From Roseospira visakhapatnamensis (GTDB taxonomy: Bacteria > Pseudomonadota > Alphaproteobacteria > Rhodospirillales > Rhodospirillaceae), in assembly GCF_014197915.1 (NCBI RefSeq), contig NZ_JACIGK010000003.1, forward strand, positions 1 through 64,000: a stretch of DNA of 64,000 nt. Reading direction: 5' to 3'. The notes beneath the pieces were generated by a model. That model had not been told where the DNA came from, ran no database searches, and saw only the letters and a list, made by a program, of their open reading frames with translations. Position numbers and translations under genes: made by a program. Below, in pieces: positions 12,337 to 24,415 of this stretch; the first letter of the stretch is position 1; every line of letters begins with the position of its first letter.

Positions 12337-13149
12337 ATGCCCGTCCGTTCCCTTCGCGCCTCCCGGTCGTTGCGTCTGGGCGTCAACATCGACCACGTGG
12401 CCACCATCCGCAACGCCCGGGGCGGCCTGGTGCCCGATCCGCTGCGGGCCGCGCACATCGCGGCGGCCGCCGGCGCCGACGGCATCACCGCCCACCTGCG
12501 CGAGGACCGGCGCCACATCTCCGATCACGACATCGTCCGGCTGTCGCGCGAAATCGACCTGCCGCTGAACCTGGAGATGGCGGCCACCGACGAAATGCTG
12601 GACATCGCCCTGGGCCACCGGCCGCACGCGGCCTGCATCGTGCCCGAACGGCGCGAGGAGCGCACCACCGAGGGCGGGCTGGATGCCGCCGGCCAGCACA
12701 ACCACCTGGCCCGGTTCGTCAGGGCGTTGGGCGCGGCCCATGTGCGCGTGTCGCTGTTCATCGAACCGGACCCGCGCCAGATCGACGCGGCCGTGGCCCT
12801 GGGCGCGCCGGTGGTGGAGTTGCACACCGGGCGGTACTGCGACGTTCAGGGCGCGGCGCGCGTGGCGGAACTGGAGCGCCTGCGCGCCGCCGCCACCCGC
12901 GCCGCCGAAGCCGGCCTGGAAGTGCACGCCGGCCATGGCCTGACGTATGACACCGTCGGCGACGTGGCCGCCATTTCGGTTATCCGCGAGTTGAACATCG
13001 GCCATTTCCTGATTGGCGAGGCCATCTTCGTCGGCCTGGAGGCGTCCATCCGCCGCATGCGGTCGATGATGGACGCGGCGCGGCCCGACGCCGATGCACC
13101 GGCCGCGTCCGGACCGGCCATCGACCCCGCCGCCGGCACCGGCGCCTGA
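12337..13149 (+). CDS. pdxJ: Pyridoxine 5'-phosphate synthase
   Basis: Condenses 1-deoxy-D-xylulose 5-phosphate with 3-amino-1-hydroxyacetone 1-phosphate in the DXP-dependent vitamin B6 pathway. The 270-residue protein contains the PdxJ signatures [60 protein letters not shown] and [12 protein letters not shown], covering the TIM-barrel active-site His and Glu residues. The C-terminal 25 residues are a variable Ala/Pro tail. It heads the pdxJ-lepB-rnc-era-recO run. The acpS gene that often follows pdxJ in this group is not present. Confidence 0.95.
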
Positions 13150-13156
13150 CCCAGCC

Positions 13157-13185
13157 TTGACAAGGCCGGGAGCGGCTGGCTTGAT
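13157..13185 (+). promoter_or_regulatory. Possible promoter of lepB
   Basis: A consensus TTGACA at 13157-13162 lies 17 bp upstream of a weak -10 candidate CTTGAT (13180-13185), starting 8 bp after the pdxJ stop. It overlaps an inverted repeat CCAGCC/GGCTGG (13151-13156 and 13174-13179). The -10 is poor, so this is tentative. Confidence 0.35.
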
Positions 13186-13275
13186 CGCCGGGCCTCGGCG
13201 TGACGCGGCGCTGTCTGGTCGTGTCGCGGAGTCTTCTCCTCTCCGGGGATCCCCTGGGAACACGCGAGCCCGTTC

Positions 13276-14013
13276 ATGCAGAAGAAAAAAACCGGTGGTT
13301 TCGGCGAGACAATCCGGACCGTGGTCTATGCCGTCCTGATCGCCATCGTCATCCGTACCGTGGCTTACGAGCCGTTCAACATTCCCTCGGCCTCCATGGT
13401 GCCGACGCTGTTGATCGGGGACTATCTGTTCGTCTCGAAGCTTTCCTACGGGTACAGCCGCCACTCCCTGCCGTTCAGTTTCCCGCCGGTTCCCGGGCGC
13501 GTGCTGTTCACCGAGCCGGAGCGCGGCGATATCGCCGTGTTCAAGCTGCCGGCCGACCCCTCCGTGGACTACATCAAGCGCATCATCGGCCTTCCGGGCG
13601 ACCGCATTCAGATGATCCGGGGCGTGCTGCACATCAACGGCGAGCCGGTGCCGCGCGAGCGCATCGAGGACGCGGTGTGGCACGACAACGCCGGCAACGT
13701 CCACCGCTCGCCCCGCTATGTCGAGACCCTGCCCGGGGGGCGGACCCACATCATCCTGGAAGACCGCCGCGACACCGGACCCCTGGATGACACGCGCGAG
13801 TTCACGGTCCCGGACGGGCACTACTTCATGATGGGCGACAACCGCGACAACTCCGCCGACAGCCGCGCCAACGTGGGATTCGTACCCCGGGACAACCTGG
13901 TGGGCCGTGCCGACGTCATCTTCTTTTCCACGGACGGCTCGGCCGCCCTGTGGGAAGTCTGGAAGTGGCCCATGGCGATTCGCTACGACCGCCTGCTCGA
14001 CGGGGTCCGTTGA
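13276..14013 (+). CDS. lepB: Signal peptidase I
   Basis: Inner-membrane serine protease that removes signal peptides from exported proteins. The 245-residue protein has one N-terminal membrane segment (about 14-29), box B IPSASMVPTL with the nucleophile Ser40, box C GDIAVFK, box D YIKRIIGLPGD with the general base Lys101, and box E FMMGDNRDNSADSR. All S26-family catalytic elements are present. It lies upstream of rnc and era, as in many proteobacteria. Confidence 0.96.
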   Translation: MQKKKTGGFGETIRTVVYAVLIAIVIRTVAYEPFNIPSASMVPTLLIGDYLFVSKLSYGYSRHSLPFSFPPVPGRVLFTEPERGDIAVFKLPADPSVDYIKRIIGLPGDRIQMIRGVLHINGEPVPRERIEDAVWHDNAGNVHRSPRYVETLPGGRTHIILEDRRDTGPLDDTREFTVPDGHYFMMGDNRDNSADSRANVGFVPRDNLVGRADVIFFSTDGSAALWEVWKWPMAIRYDRLLDGVR

Positions 14014-18051: not shown

Positions 18052-18984
18052 ATGCGTGACTCTCGTGGATCGGACGCTGTCGGCGGGATCGGTCGGCACT
18101 TGGAGGCCGTGGACGTCTGCGCCCGGATCGTCGATCACGGGCTGCGTCTTCTGAAGATGGATGCCAAGGCCGCCGCGCGGATCGGGCTGGCGGGCCTGCA
18201 CATCTGCCCCGGGCATCCGTTCGCCGCCCAGCTCTGGCTGGACGGGGTGGACGGCGTGCATGGCCTGGAGGTCCTGCCGGAGGCCGGTCCGGCCCCCTTG
18301 ATGCCGGACGGCGCCGGGCGGGCCGATCTTCTGGTGCGTTTCTTCCCGGCCGTCGACTCACCCGCGCTTACGGCGCTGACCGGGGACGAACGGGCGCTGC
18401 GGCGCGATCCGGGCTTCGATGGCACCGGCGCGCCCGACCGCGCGTTGACCCGCGCGCTGTTCGAGACGCCCCTGTTCGGGGTCGGTCTTCTGCGTCTGGC
18501 GCTGGACCCGGCGGGGGCCGTGATGGCCGTGCAGGGCGTATCCGGGACGGCCGCGGGCTGGGCGGGGACACGCCCTCTCCATGATCTCCTGATGACCGTA
18601 CTGGCGTTCGTGCACCGCGTGGCACCGTTGGCCGTCGTCGGCCTGGACGGTTCCGGACAGGAGTGTGGCGCGGTCGACGGCCTCCATGCGGTGCTGCCGT
18701 GGTCCCCCGCGCATCCGGCCCCGGCCGGCGACGCGCCGACGATCGGGGCCGAGCCCTTCGTGGCCGCCGCGCGCGCCGGGGGGCCCTTGCTTGCGCCGCC
18801 GGCCGCGCCGGCGCGCTGGTGGTCCGCCGGCGGCTGGGAGGCCGTGCCCGAGGCCGCCCTGTGCGCCTGCCATGCCGGCGACGGTGGTCACGACGGGCAC
18901 GTCTCGCCCCACCACCATCATCACGATCACGATCACCATCATCGCCAAGAGGCCGGCCTCGCGCCGGCCGGGAGTGGATCATGA
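18052..18984 (+). CDS. Hypothetical protein with His-rich C-terminal tail
   Basis: A 310-residue protein of no family known to me. The body is Ala/Gly/Leu/Asp-rich and predicted soluble, with no signal peptide. The conserved-looking N-terminal part reads VDVCARIVDHGLRLLKM and HICPGHPFAAQLWLDGV. Near the C-terminus, after ALCACHAG, a tail packed with His and Asp (about residues 280-302) resembles the metal-storage tails of nickel or zinc chaperones such as HypB or UreE. It opens the unassigned cluster and overlaps the next gene by 4 bp (ATGA). A metal-handling or cofactor-insertion role is inferred only from the tail. The start codon is uncertain because the ribosome site is weak. Confidence 0.65.
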   Translation: MRDSRGSDAVGGIGRHLEAVDVCARIVDHGLRLLKMDAKAAARIGLAGLHICPGHPFAAQLWLDGVDGVHGLEVLPEAGPAPLMPDGAGRADLLVRFFPAVDSPALTALTGDERALRRDPGFDGTGAPDRALTRALFETPLFGVGLLRLALDPAGAVMAVQGVSGTAAGWAGTRPLHDLLMTVLAFVHRVAPLAVVGLDGSGQECGAVDGLHAVLPWSPAHPAPAGDAPTIGAEPFVAAARAGGPLLAPPAAPARWWSAGGWEAVPEAALCACHAGDGGHDGHVSPHHHHHDHDHHHRQEAGLAPAGSGS

Positions 18985-19418
18985 CCACGGCCCCCCTCGA
19001 CCGTCGCGCGCTGTGTCGCGGCCTGGTGTCCCGGGCCGTCCGCGCCGTGACCCAGGGTCCGGCCGAGACCCTCGCCGACTTGTCCGGGGATCCGGGGCCC
19101 GAGCCGGGTTCCGCCGACCGTCCGGCGGAGGATCGGTCCGCCGCGTCGCGGGATCGTCCCTCGGCCGCGCCCGTTCCCGACTTCTTCGCGTCTTTCGACC
19201 AGTGTCACACCCTGATCGCGGAAATGCGTCCGTTTCTCGCCGACGCCATCCGTGATCTGGGCATCGATCCGCACGGCAAGACGGATGTGGATCTCGCACG
19301 CGAGATCATGGCGCACCAGCGCCCTAGTCCGGCCGCGCCGCGGACGTCCGTTTCCGACACCCCGGGTGTGCCCTTGCCGGAGTCTCCGGCCAAGACCTCG
19401 CGTGGCGGAAACACCTGA
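18981..19418 (+). CDS. Hypothetical protein of the unassigned cluster
   Basis: A 145-residue soluble protein whose ATG overlaps the stop of the preceding gene. The N-terminal half and last 35 residues are Pro/Ser/Asp-rich and probably disordered. The middle (about 65-115) reads FFASFDQCHTLIAEMRPFLADAIRDLGIDPHGKTDVDLAREIMAHQ, a helical segment that looks conserved. It has no signal peptide and no family I recognise. Position and overlap make it a likely partner of the His-tailed protein. Confidence 0.6.
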   Translation: MTTAPLDRRALCRGLVSRAVRAVTQGPAETLADLSGDPGPEPGSADRPAEDRSAASRDRPSAAPVPDFFASFDQCHTLIAEMRPFLADAIRDLGIDPHGKTDVDLAREIMAHQRPSPAAPRTSVSDTPGVPLPESPAKTSRGGNT

Positions 19419-19504
19419 ACGCCGGCGGTCACCAGGGGTGACCGGTCGGACGCCAAGGCCGGGGGGGGAGGACTCGTCGGCCATGGGTGCCAAGGAGAGC
19501 GCGC

Positions 19505-20818
19505 ATGCAATCAGAGCCCATGGAGCGCTATGGGGAAGGCTATCTGGAGGAGCGTAACCTCGTCCAGCGCTGGCCCAGCCCCATCCCGCAGATTCTCAAT
19601 CTGGTCCTGCTCGCGGGACTGTTCTACGCCACCTGGTGGATCTTCCAGGATCCGCGCGGCTGGCTGCGCATGTACACACCGTATGTCGGGTACATGTACT
19701 GCCGATGGCTGCTGATCATCTTCATCTGGATGGTCTACATCTTCAACTTCTGGCCGTTCCGCCGCGCCTGGCTGGAGCGTACCCACCCGCTGATCAAGGC
19801 CGTGGTGCTGACCTCGGTCGCCGTGGTGATCATGGTTCTGGTCATCAAGGGCTTCTTCGAGGGGCTGCTGGGCAGCTATGCCATGGCCTACTTCAGCCCG
19901 TCCGAGATGCAGAAGCTGGGCATCACCGACTTCTTCGCCGAGGAATACGCGGCGCTAGCGATCCTGATGTTCGCCGCCCTGGCCTCCTGGCTGTCGCCGG
20001 CCTGGGTCGTCGGCATGGAGAACGCCCCCTGGCAGCGCGAGCGCCAGCCGGTGCGGGGCATCACCATCCTGCTGGTGACCTTCTTCCTGGCCACCATCAT
20101 CTTCTTCATGACCATGCACCCGCACATGGGCATCCTGTACGAGCAGTGGCAATCCTTCGCCGCCATCGCGCCGCCCTGGTGGCACGAGTTCGCCGACACG
20201 GTCAGCGGCAACTTCCACGTCTCTTGGATCATGTGCTGCACGGTGGTGGTCTGGCTGGTGGAAACCATCTGGGAACGCTATCCGTTCCGCCTGATCCGGC
20301 ATGACTGGCTGCGCCGCTGCGCCACCTTCTTCGGCATCATCGCCATTGCCGTGTGCTGCCACTTCTTCCTGTACTTCGCGCAGGAGCTGTGGTGGGGCGA
20401 GGCCGTGCGCGGCACCCGCCGGCTGTTCGCGCCGGACTGGCGCTGGCTGCATGTGGGCGAGATGATGATCTTCTACCTGCTGCCGGCCCTGGTCATCACC
20501 TTCTACTTCAACAACTGGCCCCGCAAGGGCAGCCCCACGTCCCGAATCCTCATTCGGACCCTGGTGGCATTGTTGGCGGCCGTGGTTCTCTACTGGCTGT
20601 ACTACAACACCAGCCATCTCTTCCTGGGAACCCAGAAGGGCTTCAGCCATCCGCAGCAGTTCCCCATGATCCCGACCATCTGGATGATCAACATCATGCT
20701 GATCAACCACTGGTTCATGGACAACTGGCCCGGATGGAAGATCGCGCCCGCGACCCGCACCGTGCCGGGCGACGCCGCCAAGACCGGTGCCGCGCCCAGC
20801 ATGCAAGCGGCCGAATAG
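19505..20818 (+). CDS. Polytopic membrane protein of unknown function
   Basis: A 437-residue integral membrane protein with about ten hydrophobic segments, very rich in Trp, Phe, Tyr and Met. The first segment is IPQILNLVLLAGLFYATWWIF and the last is WMINIMLINHWFMDNWPGW. Several His residues lie at membrane edges or within segments (MTMHPHMG, WWHEF, NFHVSW, CCHFFLYF, WLHVGEMM, NTSHLF, INHWF), which would suit haem, metal or quinone binding. The ATG at 19505 follows AAGGAGAG. I do not recognise the family, and similarity to CDSs called AmoC-like or transporter would need testing. It is encoded 16 bp before a 38-residue membrane peptide, with which it may form a complex. Confidence 0.8.
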   Translation: MQSEPMERYGEGYLEERNLVQRWPSPIPQILNLVLLAGLFYATWWIFQDPRGWLRMYTPYVGYMYCRWLLIIFIWMVYIFNFWPFRRAWLERTHPLIKAVVLTSVAVVIMVLVIKGFFEGLLGSYAMAYFSPSEMQKLGITDFFAEEYAALAILMFAALASWLSPAWVVGMENAPWQRERQPVRGITILLVTFFLATIIFFMTMHPHMGILYEQWQSFAAIAPPWWHEFADTVSGNFHVSWIMCCTVVVWLVETIWERYPFRLIRHDWLRRCATFFGIIAIAVCCHFFLYFAQELWWGEAVRGTRRLFAPDWRWLHVGEMMIFYLLPALVITFYFNNWPRKGSPTSRILIRTLVALLAAVVLYWLYYNTSHLFLGTQKGFSHPQQFPMIPTIWMINIMLINHWFMDNWPGWKIAPATRTVPGDAAKTGAAPSMQAAE

Positions 20819-20834
20819 AGCGAGGAGGCGGATC

Positions 20835-20951
20835 ATGAATTCCTACGCCAAGGGCCTCGTGGCCGGCATTCCCATCGGCATCGTCCTGTTCTTTGTCGTG
20901 GTCCTGGTCCTTCGATGGGCCGGCACGCTGGACGTGATGACGGACTGGTAA
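20835..20951 (+). CDS. 38-residue single-span membrane peptide
   Basis: A short open frame with a GAGGAGG ribosome site directly before the ATG. The product has one strong hydrophobic segment (about residues 8-27, GLVAGIPIGIVLFFVVVLVL) flanked by a short polar start and the acidic tail TLDVMTDW. It lies 16 bp after the large membrane protein and 62 bp before the Tat-exported hydrolase. Small single-span subunits of this kind commonly stabilise larger membrane enzymes, so it is probably a real subunit of this cluster. Confidence 0.7.
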   Translation: MNSYAKGLVAGIPIGIVLFFVVVLVLRWAGTLDVMTDW

Positions 20952-21013
20952 CGGTTTCGACGAACCACGGGCGGGGGTTTGCTGTTGCCCCCGCCCCACG
21001 GGAGTGAACAGAG

Positions 21014-22285
21014 ATGACCGACACATCGCATGGCTCGACCGGTGATCGCCGCGCCTTCCTGCGCGGCGCGGCGGGCGGCACCGCGCTGGGCGCGCTGGGC
21101 ATGATGGGGGCGTACTCGTATTCGCCCCTGCGCCACGCCCACTTCGCCAAGGACGAGAACGAGAAGGCGGACATCGGCGCCGTCCGGTCGCTGAAGGTGA
21201 CCAACATCTCCGAGACGAGCTGGTTCAACAACGCCGACCTGATCGGCGATATCCGGGGCGCCGGTGGCCTGCTGGTCAACCAGTACCGCTTCAACTGGCC
21301 CCCCTTCGCCAACAAGAACGGCAAGCTGGCCGAGGGCTCCTACGCCGACGGCATCAAGCACATCAAGGACGACCTGCCCAACAACCTGGAGCGGGCCTGG
21401 GCGTTCCAGATGGAGAACGCCGTTCATCCCGAGAACGCGGGCGGGTATGCCGCGTTGCTGGAAATCGAACTGCGCGACGGCAGCACCAAGAAGATTTTGC
21501 TGGACTCGGGCTGGTCCTATGACTGGATCGACAAGTCGTTCCAGCGCGAGGGCATCGACAAGATGCTGGCCAACGGCGAGATCGATGCCCTGGTGATCTC
21601 TCACGAGCACTTCGATCACTTCTGGGGCTTCCCGGTGACCATGAAGTACGCCCCGGAGATCGACGTCTACGTGCCCGAGGGGTTCTACGAGGAAGGCTTC
21701 CAGTACGTGAAGGACTCCGGGCATCGGGGCGCCCTGCATGTGCTGAAACCGGGGCTCACGCAAATGTTCGACGGCGTGGCCATCTACAACTTCGCCATTC
21801 CCATCATCACCCGTGTCTATGGCGAGAACTCGCTGTACGTCAACGTGGAGGGGAAGGGCCTGGTGTCGGTGACCGGCTGTTGCCACCAGGGTATCATTCG
21901 CTTCGCCGAGACGGCCTTGCAGGAAATCCAGATGGAGAAGCTGTACGGCATCTATGGCGGCCTGCACATCAGCCCGTTCGACGACTGGGATCCCAAGTAC
22001 GACGATCTGGTGTTCACGCTGGGCGATTACGGCTTCGAGAAGATCGGCGCCAACCACTGCACGGGGCTGCTGACGGTGAAGAAGTTCGTCGCGCGGGGCC
22101 TGCCGGTGGTGCAGGGCACGGCGCGGTTCGGCAGCAAGGACCCGGTGTACCTGGGCAACGGTGACCAGATCGGCTTCGGCGTCGACGTGGCCTTGATGAG
22201 CCCGGCCAGCGCCCATCTGTCCGGATCGGCCGGCGCGCCCGCCACGGGCGGTGACGACGGCAGCGTGAAAGGGGCGACGTACTGA
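21014..22285 (+). CDS. Tat-exported metallo-beta-lactamase-fold hydrolase (COG1237-like)
   Basis: A 423-residue metallo-hydrolase with a twin-arginine signal (DRRAFLRGAAGG, Arg12-Arg13), so exported folded with its metal. The metal motif HEHFDH is at 197-202. Further signatures are GCCHQGI (288-294), IYGGLHISPF and NHCTGLLTV. GCCHxGI and the GGxH block resemble the COG1237 branch (7,8-dihydropterin-6-methyl-4-(beta-D-ribofuranosyl)aminobenzene-5'-phosphate synthase-like), not antibiotic-hydrolysing beta-lactamases. The substrate is unknown. A segment of about 130 residues between signal and core (NISETSWFNNADLIGDIRG...) may be lineage-specific. Its stop is 3 bp from the next start. Confidence 0.85.
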   Translation: MTDTSHGSTGDRRAFLRGAAGGTALGALGMMGAYSYSPLRHAHFAKDENEKADIGAVRSLKVTNISETSWFNNADLIGDIRGAGGLLVNQYRFNWPPFANKNGKLAEGSYADGIKHIKDDLPNNLERAWAFQMENAVHPENAGGYAALLEIELRDGSTKKILLDSGWSYDWIDKSFQREGIDKMLANGEIDALVISHEHFDHFWGFPVTMKYAPEIDVYVPEGFYEEGFQYVKDSGHRGALHVLKPGLTQMFDGVAIYNFAIPIITRVYGENSLYVNVEGKGLVSVTGCCHQGIIRFAETALQEIQMEKLYGIYGGLHISPFDDWDPKYDDLVFTLGDYGFEKIGANHCTGLLTVKKFVARGLPVVQGTARFGSKDPVYLGNGDQIGFGVDVALMSPASAHLSGSAGAPATGGDDGSVKGATY

Positions 22286-22288
22286 GCC

Positions 22289-22906
22289 ATGAGACATCTT
22301 CGCATCGGGGCCGCCGTGGCGGCCCTGGGCCTGCTGACCGCCCCCACCGGGGCGGTGGCGGCCGACATCACCTTCGCGGCCGTGGGCGGACCGCCGTCCA
22401 TCGCCAAGGCCAGCGCCTTCGTGGGCATCCTGGACAGCCTGACCGACCAGCACACCGCCTCGATGGTGGTGGTGGCGCCCCAGGACCTGCGGGACGCCCT
22501 GGTCAGTGGTCGTGCCCAGGTGACCTTTGACGTGGATCCCACGTCCGAGGACGTCTCGACCTTCGAGGACGCCGGCCTCGTCGACCTGGGGCCGAACCAG
22601 ATGGGCGGCCTTCCGGAACGCCACACCGTGGTGGCCCGGAGCCTGGTGGAGACGGCACCGGAGGTGGTGGAGTTCCTCAACCTCTTCTTCGTCTCGGGAT
22701 CGCGCCTGGACGAGATGGCCTCGCTGGTCGAGGACGACACCATTCCCGAGGGCACGCTGGCCGTCTGGTTGCAGTCCAATGAACCGTGGATCCGCAACAT
22801 GCTGGCCCTCTGTCCCGAGTTCAGCTCGGGATCCTGCGAGAAAGGCGACGGCGGCCGGCCCTTCAAGGCCAAGGACTGGTACGGGACACCCGAGGCCGAC
22901 CGCTGA
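22289..22906 (+). CDS. Small periplasmic protein resembling part of a substrate-binding protein
   Basis: A 205-residue exported protein with a signal peptide (about 1-24, ending GAVAA). The mature start ITFAAVGGPPSIAKASAFVGILDSL and the later LVETAPEVVEFLNLFFVSGSRLDEMASLVEDDTIPEGTLAVWLQSNEPWIRNML resemble a type-2 periplasmic binding fold of the glycine-betaine kind. At this length, though, only about two thirds of such a protein is present. Two Cys near the C-terminus (CPEFSSGSC) could form a disulfide. It lies 3 bp after the hydrolase gene and before a terminator, so it closes the operon. Function unknown. Confidence 0.7.
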   Translation: MRHLRIGAAVAALGLLTAPTGAVAADITFAAVGGPPSIAKASAFVGILDSLTDQHTASMVVVAPQDLRDALVSGRAQVTFDVDPTSEDVSTFEDAGLVDLGPNQMGGLPERHTVVARSLVETAPEVVEFLNLFFVSGSRLDEMASLVEDDTIPEGTLAVWLQSNEPWIRNMLALCPEFSSGSCEKGDGGRPFKAKDWYGTPEADR

Positions 22907-23371
22907 TCACGGCCGGTTCGGGCGGGTCCCGCCCGCAGTATCCGCCCGCGATGTCCGAAAGAGCAGACGTGCCGGGGGATCTCCATCGCAGGAGATCCCC
23001 CGCTCGCGTTTTCGTCCTTTTTCCTTCTCCAGCGGCCCGGACCTGGGATATCAGGGGGCTCGCGTGTCCCGACTCCGAAGGTCGCCGCTGTGTGCCGCGT
23101 CCCGTCAACGGCCTTGGGATTCGGCCGGGAGACCCGTACGTTTGTGAGTCTCGTGTTGTCGAGGGATGCGACGGCCCGTGAGACCCCGCGAAAGCGATGT
23201 GAGGGCCGTTGTATCCTCCAAGGGGCAGGCCACCGGGTGTCGGCGCGGGGTCGGGTCAGGACCGTCGACACGATGCGGGGTCCGACGCGAGAGAAGGACG
23301 GGAGGAGACCGCCGGGTTCGGCGGGCCTCGATACCCCAAAAGGATGAATAAGGATACAGGAGGACGTTCGC
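22907..23371 (+). other. Intergenic region after the unassigned cluster
   Basis: No gene seen. It contains the intrinsic terminator at 22974-23025, a widely spaced inverted repeat ACGGCCC (23171-23177)/GGGCCGT (23203-23209) and, just before the TRAP gene, an ACAGGAGGA ribosome site. The promoter of the TRAP gene is expected in the last 150 bp but is not clear. Confidence 0.6.
22974..23025 (+). terminator. Rho-independent terminator of the unassigned cluster
   Basis: GGGGGATCTCC (22974-22984), a 6-nt loop and GGAGATCCCCC (22991-23001) form a perfect 11-bp stem, followed by T-rich DNA with TTTT and TTTTT runs. It begins 67 bp after the last stop codon of the cluster. Confidence 0.85.
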
Positions 23372-24415
23372 ATGACCGTGTCCAGGATGCTTCCGCGTGC
23401 CGTCGCCGTGGCGGCCGCCGCGCTGACCATCGCCGTCACGATGGCCCCCCCACCAGCCCAGGCGACCGATTACAAGAACGAGTACAAGGTCTCCACCGTG
23501 ATCCCGGTGCCGTTCCCCTGGGGCATCGCCGCCGAGGAGTGGGCGAGGCTGGTGGCCGAGCGCACCGACGGCCGCATCACCATGAAGCTCTATCCCGGTG
23601 CCCAGTTGGTGGCCGGCGAACAGACCAAGGAGTTCACCGCGCTGCGCCGGGGCGGCATCGACATGGCCGTGGGCTCGACCATCAACTGGTCGCCGCAGAT
23701 CGTCGAACTGAACCTGTTTTCCCTGCCGTTCCTGATGCCGGACTACGCCGCGCTGGACGCCCTGACCCAGGGACCGGTGGGCGCGCGCCTGTTCGAAATC
23801 ATCCGCGAGAACGGAGTCGAGCCCCTGGGCTGGGCCGAGAACGGCTTTCGCGAGGTCAGCAACTCCCGCCATGCCATCGCCACGCCCGAGGACCTCGCCG
23901 GCATGAAAATGCGGGTGGTCGGCTCGCCGCTGTTCAACGACACGTTCACCGCGCTCGGCGCCAACCCGGCGCAAATGAGCTGGGCCGACGCCAAGCCGGC
24001 GCTGACCACCGGCGCCGTGGACGGTCAGGAAAACCCGCTGACCATCTTCGCCATCGCCAAGATGCACGAGGTCGGCCAGACCCATGTGACCCTGTGGCAC
24101 TACATGGCCGACCCGCTGATCTTTGGTGTCAGTCACAAGGTCTGGGAGACCTTCACGCCCGAGGATCAGGAGATCCTGCGTCAGGCCGCCATTGACGCCG
24201 GGGCCAAGGGCATCGAGGTCGCGCGCGCGGGCCTGACCGCCGACGACGAGTCGCTGATCGAGGAGATCGAGGGCCAGGGCGTCACCGTCACGCGCCTGAC
24301 CGATGCGCAGCGCCAGATGTTCGTGGACGCCACGCAGGACGTCTACGAGACCTGGGCGAACAAGATCGGCCGCGACCTGGTGACCCAGGCCGAGGAGTCC
24401 ATCGCCAATCGGTGA
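23372..24415 (+). CDS. TRAP transporter solute-binding protein (DctP family)
   Basis: A 347-residue periplasmic receptor for a carboxylic-acid-type solute. A signal peptide covers about residues 1-31 (ending PAQA). The body has the DctP signatures GELVAGEQTKEF-like (AQLVAGEQTKEF), DMAVGSTINWSPQIVELNLFSLPFL and, most telling, HAIATPEDLAGMKMRVVGSPLFNDTFTALGANPAQMSWADAKPALTTGAVDGQENP, which carries the Arg that usually grips the substrate carboxylate. The ATG follows AGGAGGA. No dctQ or dctM gene is adjacent; the nearest are at 27315-29165 with their own receptor. It may serve that transporter or one elsewhere. Confidence 0.93.
   Translation: MTVSRMLPRAVAVAAAALTIAVTMAPPPAQATDYKNEYKVSTVIPVPFPWGIAAEEWARLVAERTDGRITMKLYPGAQLVAGEQTKEFTALRRGGIDMAVGSTINWSPQIVELNLFSLPFLMPDYAALDALTQGPVGARLFEIIRENGVEPLGWAENGFREVSNSRHAIATPEDLAGMKMRVVGSPLFNDTFTALGANPAQMSWADAKPALTTGAVDGQENPLTIFAIAKMHEVGQTHVTLWHYMADPLIFGVSHKVWETFTPEDQEILRQAAIDAGAKGIEVARAGLTADDESLIEEIEGQGVTVTRLTDAQRQMFVDATQDVYETWANKIGRDLVTQAEESIANR

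Follow-up and report, generated by a model that had tools for sequence, protein, structure and literature searches.

The window analysed here is a 64,000-nucleotide stretch of the Roseospira visakhapatnamensis contig NZ_JACIGK010000003.1 (positions 1 to 64,000), and it carries a cluster of six open reading frames (ORFs), g1 to g6 (Table 1). This cluster had been described, from its sequence alone, as six close or overlapping genes on one strand that match no named system (the original prediction). Reading of the ORFs bore out the layout: all six lie on the + strand and span positions 18052-22906, with a 4-base overlap between g1 and g2 and gaps of 86, 16, 62 and 3 bases between the remaining genes. 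The His tail of g1 with CACH ahead of it, and the HEHFDH, GCCHQGI and RRAFLRG motifs of g5, the last being of the twin-arginine translocation (Tat) type, are also present in the sequence. Since each ORF has relatives in the same order in other genomes, the six are judged to be genuine genes and not chance frames of GC-rich DNA. Four parts, namely the g1-type domain, g2, g3 and g5, recur together in other bacteria, and the gene set has the appearance of a genuine cell-envelope machine not yet described.

Table 1. Features of the g1 to g6 cluster, in positions of the window
Feature	Position	Strand	Description
g1	18052..18984	+	Domain ending WW...CACH plus His-rich tail; homologous to the domain that begins COG0523 GTPase fusions; putative donor of metal to g5
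g2	18981..19418	+	Small protein with Tat-like RR motif DRRALCRG and conserved C-terminal part but no evident hydrophobic span; putative assembly/escort factor
g3	19505..20818	+	Ten-span Trp/His-rich inner-membrane protein; system core
g4	20835..20951	+	Detached C-terminal transmembrane helix of g3, by alignment
g5	21014..22285	+	Tat-type signal plus COG1237-like metallo-beta-lactamase-fold protein
g6	22289..22906	+	Accessory protein with signal-peptide-like start, OpuAC-like
Hairpin	22965..23011	+	Probable terminator downstream of g6

Recurrence and distribution of the gene set

Relatives of the membrane protein g3 were sorted into tiers by profile score: tier 1 is of the window type, and tiers 2 and 3 are 26-30% and 21-23% identical to the g3 of the window. 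Two loci, L105 and L106, fell below the score cut and were moved by hand from tier 3 to tier 2, because g5 and g1 genes are present at both and because they reach 315 and 310 bits against the A4 profile. Gene context was counted within 6 kb of g3 at 66 tier-1, 8 tier-2 and 13 tier-3 loci, after four duplicates had been dropped. ORF calling was mechanical, and neighbouring genes were each scored with one or two queries.

A g5 gene was found near g3 at 63 of the 66 tier-1 loci, at all 8 tier-2 loci and at none of the 13 tier-3 loci; at the three tier-1 loci without it, the contig breaks off no more than 2 bases from g3. Measured between stop-to-stop frames, g3 and g5 are separated by a median of 0 and at most 213 bases. 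The g1-type domain occurs at 60/66, 8/8 and 0/13 loci of the three tiers, and at the six tier-1 loci without it the contig ends, on one side of g3, no more than 650 bases away, so that its absence there is not established. Matches to g2 (E<0.01 with a first and a second profile) were obtained at 52/66, 7/8 and 0/13 loci; the second profile was made from 20 other rows, and 29 of the 52 tier-1 loci are training rows. A COG0523-type GTPase lies near 52/66 tier-1 loci, 0/8 tier-2 loci and 0/13 tier-3 loci. Other tier-1 neighbours are variable: GntR (32 of 66), PAS (31), ExbB (15), ExbD (14), TonB (13), a 131-residue protein family (11), a chemoreceptor (7) and g6 (6). In L012, a GntR regulator with an FCD domain precedes g3. 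The chemotaxis-receptor-type genes lie at L016, L027, L035, L039, L046, L054 and L139, hinting that the substrate may attract cells.

Among 395 Desulfobacterota genomes, a tier-1 or tier-2 g3 is present in 18, every one of which also has a g5-family match (E≤1e-25). This match adjoins g3 in 17 of them, and in G499 the two lie on two contig fragments. The joint recurrence of membrane protein and hydrolase in unrelated genomes, which the original prediction had named as support for a system, is borne out by these counts and by the g3 tree described below.

The genome of the window contains a single match to g3, whose closest named relatives, in the tree as well, are those of Roseospira navarrensis (88% identity) and Rhodospira trueperi (86%). 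A scan of one genome per species gave 53 loci with a g3 match, in Pseudomonadota, Desulfobacterota, Campylobacterota, bins of Spirochaetia, Anaerolineaceae and SAR324, and others. Tallies from the genome-wide searches include the centre genome of each sample, and in those of Alphaproteobacteria, Pseudomonadota and Desulfobacterota at most four candidates per genome were scored, so that misses are possible. The searches found g3 in 10/78 genomes of relatives, 1/386 Alphaproteobacteria (the window's own), 2/397 Pseudomonadota (one being the window's), 6/251 Chloroflexota (clear only for the centre genome) and, counting any tier, 31/395 Desulfobacterota (one of them marginal, E 3.5e-4). The plasmid collection gave no g3 match. 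The gene set is rare and patchily spread among bacteria. In some genomes the set is present twice: the tier-1 loci L007 and L032 share a Pseudodesulfovibrio bin, and the genome of L025 has one tier-1 and one tier-2 locus (L104).

Mean column identity across the 46 aligned g3 sequences is 75%. The g3 tree interleaves phyla, with 15 label changes where the minimum possible is 5 and shuffled labels average 19.0, hence some clustering; group names follow the submitters' titles, and "Myxococcota" takes in records titled only Deltaproteobacteria. The interleaving suggests gene transfer, though titles and bins are imperfect. Joint transfer would explain part of the linkage, and the set could then be a co-inherited cassette of unrelated functions, in which a membrane protein, a hydrolase and a chaperone have no physical or pathway link. 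The patchy spread is consistent with such a cassette, as are the g5 relatives that exist alone, among them a tier-2-like one. Tier-2 g3 proteins have diverged widely from that of the window, yet a g5 and a g1-type gene are kept with them wherever no contig end is near, and g2-type genes are found at most loci of tiers 1 and 2, whereas the presence of GTPase, GntR and TonB genes varies from locus to locus. We therefore regard an unlinked cassette as quite improbable.

The core proteins and their relatives

No Pfam family was recognised in g3 at E≤1 and no NCBIfam family came near its cut-off, the best being ncs2 with 15.2 bits against 291.8. The tier-1 profile had no sequence match in the PDB, and the superfamily profile had one chance-level match, to a Rubisco (E 0.34). 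An AlphaFold2 model of the fused g3 relative of L012 (pLDDT 82.6, pTM 0.86) contains ten membrane helices plus one equivalent to g4, in line with the roughly ten spans of the original prediction. Foldseek gave no PDB match to this model at E≤0.001, the top row being chain C of 6btm, alternative complex III (E 0.036, TM-score 0.15), and the top VIA-align row, a de novo coiled-coil barrel with Z 9.0 (others below 5), was read as a chance match; these fold searches used models of proteins from the related locus L012 instead of the window proteins and do not establish that the fold is new. By eye g3 is AmoC-like, and a copper membrane monooxygenase was considered and shelved, with no support from the Pfam profiles, the PDB profiles or the fold rows shown. 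The conserved start of g3 may be the Met codon at 19520.

Six His residues of g3 (201, 203, 234, 312, 367 and 378 in L012, equivalent to 205, 207, 238, 316, 371 and 382 in the window) are conserved in tier 1, where every one of them is found in no fewer than 44 of the 46 rows. With the N-terminus inside, g3 has 18 Lys and Arg residues inside and 8 outside, which favours that topology, and the six His are then predicted to lie at helix ends on the periplasmic side. That they form a joint site is a guess. Among 22 rows from all tiers, H316 of the window is the only invariant His; at the six positions, in the order given, His occurs in 7, 8, 1, 8, 0 and 3 of the eight tier-2 rows and in 0, 0, 0, 9, 7 and 5 of the nine tier-3 rows.

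The 38-residue single-span peptide, which the original prediction had counted as a separate protein, turned out by alignment to correspond to the last transmembrane helix of g3. In most relatives g3 runs to about 470 residues and has an additional helix at its C-terminal end, with which g4 aligns at 7 loci (BLAST, 42-56% over 18-28 residues), with E values of 0.0005-0.009 that are singly weak. At the nine short-g3 loci examined, including the window, a membrane-helix frame of 30-39 codons occupies the gap before g5, in most cases behind a purine-rich Shine-Dalgarno-like stretch; the frame has no standard start in L014 and only TTG in L047. The g4 peptide is best taken as an eleventh g3 helix with a reading frame of its own, and the idea of an independent regulatory peptide was rejected. 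Stop-codon readthrough from g3 into g4, with the TGA stops of some relatives sitting between the short g3 and the g4 frame, was likewise rejected because the g4 frame has its own start at most short-g3 loci.

The g5 protein has a metallo-beta-lactamase (MBL) fold. It scores 29.5 bits (E 8.9e-7) against Pfam Lactamase_B, whose cut-off is 22.7, and profile matches were found in the PDB to 7dck (E 1.4e-19), 2p4z (E 1.5e-15) and 3h3e (E 2.9e-7), all members of a family that we take to be COG1237. With these proteins g5 shares the catalytic-core motifs and the sequence profile of the MBL domain; it differs in carrying a Tat-type signal and additional N-terminal sequence and, within its clade, in being paired with a membrane protein. 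The chains in those PDB entries are short (248-284 residues), and their names say no more than lactamase-type or uncharacterised. Across 25 rows the HxHxDH, GCxH and NHCTG positions are invariant; the invariant residues include H197, H199, D201, H202, H291, H318 and H348, which take in the HxHxDH motif and the metal-ligand His residues further on, in GCxH and towards the C-terminus. The twin-Arg motif comes with a hydrophobic stretch, its first Arg being invariant and its second present in at least 90% of the same rows. We infer from this that g5 is exported by Tat; the NCBIfam TAT model gave 10.8 bits on the g5 of the window (E 0.52), below its cut-off of 16.7.

The wider MBL family to which g5 belongs has other lives, and just its membrane-linked clade is tied to g3. 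At L145 (6962-8014) a tier-2-like g5 relative has no Tat-type signal by pattern and no g3-like or g1-like ORF in 15 kb, while its flanking genes resemble, by eye, those of the tier-2 locus L134. This locus may reflect natural loss or a state before gain. Stand-alone g5 relatives at L151, L153 (4752-7500), L154-L158 and L164 have no Tat-type motif and lie near an AIR-synthase-type gene that is SelD-like by eye; a DoxX gene is found near some of them, and Pfam was run on L153 only.

No Pfam or NCBIfam family scored above cut-off for g1, and a PDB sequence search of the g1 domain brought no gain. When six g1 proteins were compared by hhalign with twenty N-terminal domains of GTPase fusions, a match with a probability of 97.6% was obtained (E 2.7e-12, 182 columns). 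In L012 the g1-type domain continues into cobW (E 8.9e-37) and CobW_C, that is, into a GTPase of the COG0523/G3E (CobW-like) group found near most tier-1 loci. The g1 of the window differs from these in having no GTPase domain: it gave no cobW match at E≤1, and the P-loop GTPase domain with CxCC occurs only in the fusions of relatives. A GTPase within g1 was rejected accordingly. In the window clade and in tier 2, the domain ends soon after a WW pair (once WY) in the Cys motif, and no GTPase follows; the terminal Cys motif is CxC in 10 of 13 rows and CxxC, CC and a single Cys in one each, and a His-rich tail is present in the window clade. Being homologous to the N-terminal half of the COG0523 fusions, the His-tailed g1 appears to be a GTPase-less version of the fusion part. 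The absence of the GTPase from all tier-2 loci suggests that the fusion may be the derived state.

A model of the g1-type domain, made for L012 (pLDDT 91.4), which is 14% identical to g1 in the alignment, gave no convincing fold: the best Foldseek row had E 0.06, and the top VIA row, a phage coat protein with Z 4.3, was read as chance. Elsewhere in the genome of the window the GTPase region has three further matches (36% identity at best), and these proteins could act in trans. The original prediction had suggested that the His-tailed protein loads metal. Its homology to the N-terminal half of a COG0523 GTPase fusion, which other genomes carry in the same operon, makes g1 a plausible metal-loading factor.

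Small ORFs with RR or RK near the N-terminus lie directly upstream of g3 at many tier-1 loci, and g2 is one of them. A g2 profile made from nine sequences was used to search 21,671 ORFs. Of the 31 rows listed at E<0.5, nine are the training rows and three are duplicates of these; every one of the 31 shares its strand with a g3 gene lying no more than about 2.1 kb away. In tier 2 the motif is still of the RRxFF or RRxFL type, with KR in one copy. No Pfam or NCBIfam family scored above cut-off for g2. NapF-type cytoplasmic accessory proteins carry an RR motif, and a possible likeness of g2 to them lies in a short N-terminal RR motif, the lack of a hydrophobic span and a gene beside that of a Tat substrate; g2 differs in having no Pfam ferredoxin match.

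These comparisons confirmed the observation on which the original prediction was built and strengthened its claim of a system, with a corrected list of parts: g2, which had been overlooked, belongs to the conserved core, and g6 is an accessory limited to a clade. The idea of a system proved largely right, and the original interpretation as a whole is supported in part. Three of the four core proteins (g1, g2 and g3) are above no Pfam or NCBIfam cut-off, the whole set has no family match, and no named system was found that fits; for these reasons the quartet looks new, within the libraries searched. A literature search found no paper on such a system, although most subscription papers lie outside its coverage and a description may be in print elsewhere. 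Passages of the COG0523 survey of 2009 (PMC2770081) and of a Syntrophobacter proteomics paper (PMC8691401) contain no description of it, and the main text of the former uses neither "lactamase" nor "fused".

Possible function and competing explanations

It is possible, though short of probable, that the four core parts form a dedicated periplasm-facing system in which metallated g5 works with g3. In this mechanism g1 would bind metal via its CxCH/His tail and pass it to apo g5 in the cytoplasm; in most tier-1 relatives the hand-over may be assisted by GTP hydrolysis through the COG0523 domain fused to the g1-type domain. On the cytoplasmic side g2 would help to assemble or escort the Tat substrate g5. 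Folded and metallated g5, which bears the export motif, would leave by Tat and dock on the periplasmic face of g3 and the detached helix g4, near the predicted position of the six tier-1 His. Docked g5 would hydrolyse or otherwise convert a small substrate, perhaps delivered, in this clade, by a binding protein like g6. The acid product may then be carried into the cell by g3, to judge from tier-3 relatives near acyl-CoA synthetase and mutase genes. Which metal is delivered by COG0523 proteins is a long-open question for much of that family, and a chaperone of this type encoded beside its likely target would allow the direct question of which metal these GTPases deliver, and how.

Clues to the type of substrate come from g6 and from the tier-3 loci. 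The g6 gene was seen in the Rhodospira/Roseospira clade and at one Syntrophaceae locus. Against Pfam PF04069 (OpuAC, cut-off 21.2), g6 scored 13.4 bits in the window (E 0.06) and 13.5 in L052, both below the cut-off, and 30.6 bits in L014, above it. The L014 relative (12736-13299) has an in-frame TGA in mid-gene, beyond which the sequence is still g6-like by eye; selenocysteine, a sequencing error or a pseudogene could account for it. At the tier-2 locus L105, genes for an OpuAC protein and an ABC ATPase are found upstream of g5, at a distance of about 2.6 kb or more. A betaine-like substrate is a lead because of the OpuAC-like g6 of the window clade and these two genes of L105.

The tier-3 branch (L110-L114, L116-L119 and L135-L138) consists of Trp/His-rich proteins of about 430 residues, and no Pfam family was recognised in the two examined. 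An acyl-CoA synthetase or methylmalonyl-CoA mutase gene lies within 6 kb at 11 of the 13 tier-3 loci and at 1 of the 66 tier-1 loci (Fisher 1e-10; the tier-3 loci share ancestry and one phylum, Desulfobacterota, so that the value overstates independence and serves as a guide only). Five acyl-CoA synthetase genes, all on the strand of g3, and seven mutase genes are present. In L110 and L112 a DUF294/cNMP regulator, an acyl-CoA synthetase and the tier-3 protein follow in this order. Acetate uptake operons combine a DUF294/cNMP regulator and acetyl-CoA synthetase with the ActP permease. Unlike known permeases, the tier-3 proteins of L110 and L111 matched no Pfam permease family (ActP/SSS, SatP, FNT) at E≤0.5, and the system of the window has no acyl-CoA synthetase of its own. 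Because tier-3 relatives lie near acid-activation genes, in L110 and L112 in a setting like that of acetate permease operons, the comparison suggests, without proving it, that the g3 superfamily carries small acids. The tier-3 relatives near propionate-type genes are candidates for a possible new short-chain-acid carrier family in Desulfobacterota.

In its most specific form, which we hold only tentatively and consider rather doubtful, the proposal is that g3, g4 and g5 make up an undescribed membrane metalloenzyme, with a Tat-exported MBL subunit on a ten-span protein of new fold that bears a periplasmic ring of six His. A cytoplasmic pair, g1 (with or without the COG0523 GTPase) and g2, would load the metal and proofread export, and the enzyme would serve the catabolism of small acids or betaine-like compounds in anaerobes and purple bacteria.

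Several findings weigh against the mechanism. Homologues in unrelated contexts, which the original prediction had named as evidence against a system, were found in part: distant g3 relatives occur without g5, and 23 further Desulfobacterota genomes of the 395 have a g5-family match and no detected tier-1 or tier-2 g3. Twenty of these 23 g5 loci were examined, in stretches of 3.6-16 kb, and contained no g3-like or g1-like ORF even at E 10; by the same pattern, a Tat-type signal is present in 5 of the 20 (L146-L150) and absent from 15. The full six-His set is confined to tier 1. Transport is argued from the distant tier-3 relatives, which have neither g5 nor g1 and come from a single phylum, and only 2 of the 7 mutase genes share the strand of the tier-3 g3 relative. 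The ExbB/ExbD/TonB genes of 13-15 tier-1 loci are unaccounted for, and a cytochrome c gene lies near 3 of the 8 tier-2 loci (L105 6162-6500, L106 6162-6608 and L068), which fits a redox role better and suggests electron transfer.

This last observation bears on a membrane-bound periplasmic oxidoreductase, in which g5 and the His-lined face of g3 would hold a metal site and pass electrons to a c-type cytochrome or quinone, with g1 and g2 as maturation factors. The six conserved His of tier 1 agree with such an enzyme, and several MBL-fold families are redox enzymes. None of the 66 tier-1 loci, however, matches the single cytochrome query used, no Pfam family of any kind is recognised in g3, and tier 3 sits near acid-activation genes; we consider an oxidoreductase unlikely.

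The TonB-type genes suggest outer-membrane uptake of something larger or scarce. They could belong to a metal acquisition system in which g3 moves a metal or its chelate inward, g5 breaks the chelate in the periplasm, the g1/COG0523 protein receives the metal and ExbB/ExbD/TonB powers uptake across the outer membrane. The COG0523 fusion and the His-rich tails would suit this arrangement as well. The regulators tested, however, are FCD-GntR and PAS proteins and of no known metalloregulator family (Zur boxes and TonB-dependent receptors were not searched for), and the tier-3 context is one of carboxylate metabolism. Metal acquisition is, on this evidence, distinctly unlikely, and a metallated g5 working with g3 is the reading we prefer.

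Features downstream of the cluster

The strong terminator described by the original prediction is supported in part. The hairpin downstream of g6 has a 12-bp perfect stem (-34 kcal/mol, z -4.98), and its T tail is weak, for which reason a terminator consensus scan did not list it. After the cluster comes a solitary TRAP-type DctP gene (23372-24415), followed by an ORF that is glutathione-S-transferase-like by eye and not DctQM. A TRAP-linked function was dropped, as DctP-type matches lie near g3 at just two tier-1 loci, L041 and the window. By eye, TRAP-type genes also adjoin the tier-2 locus L104.

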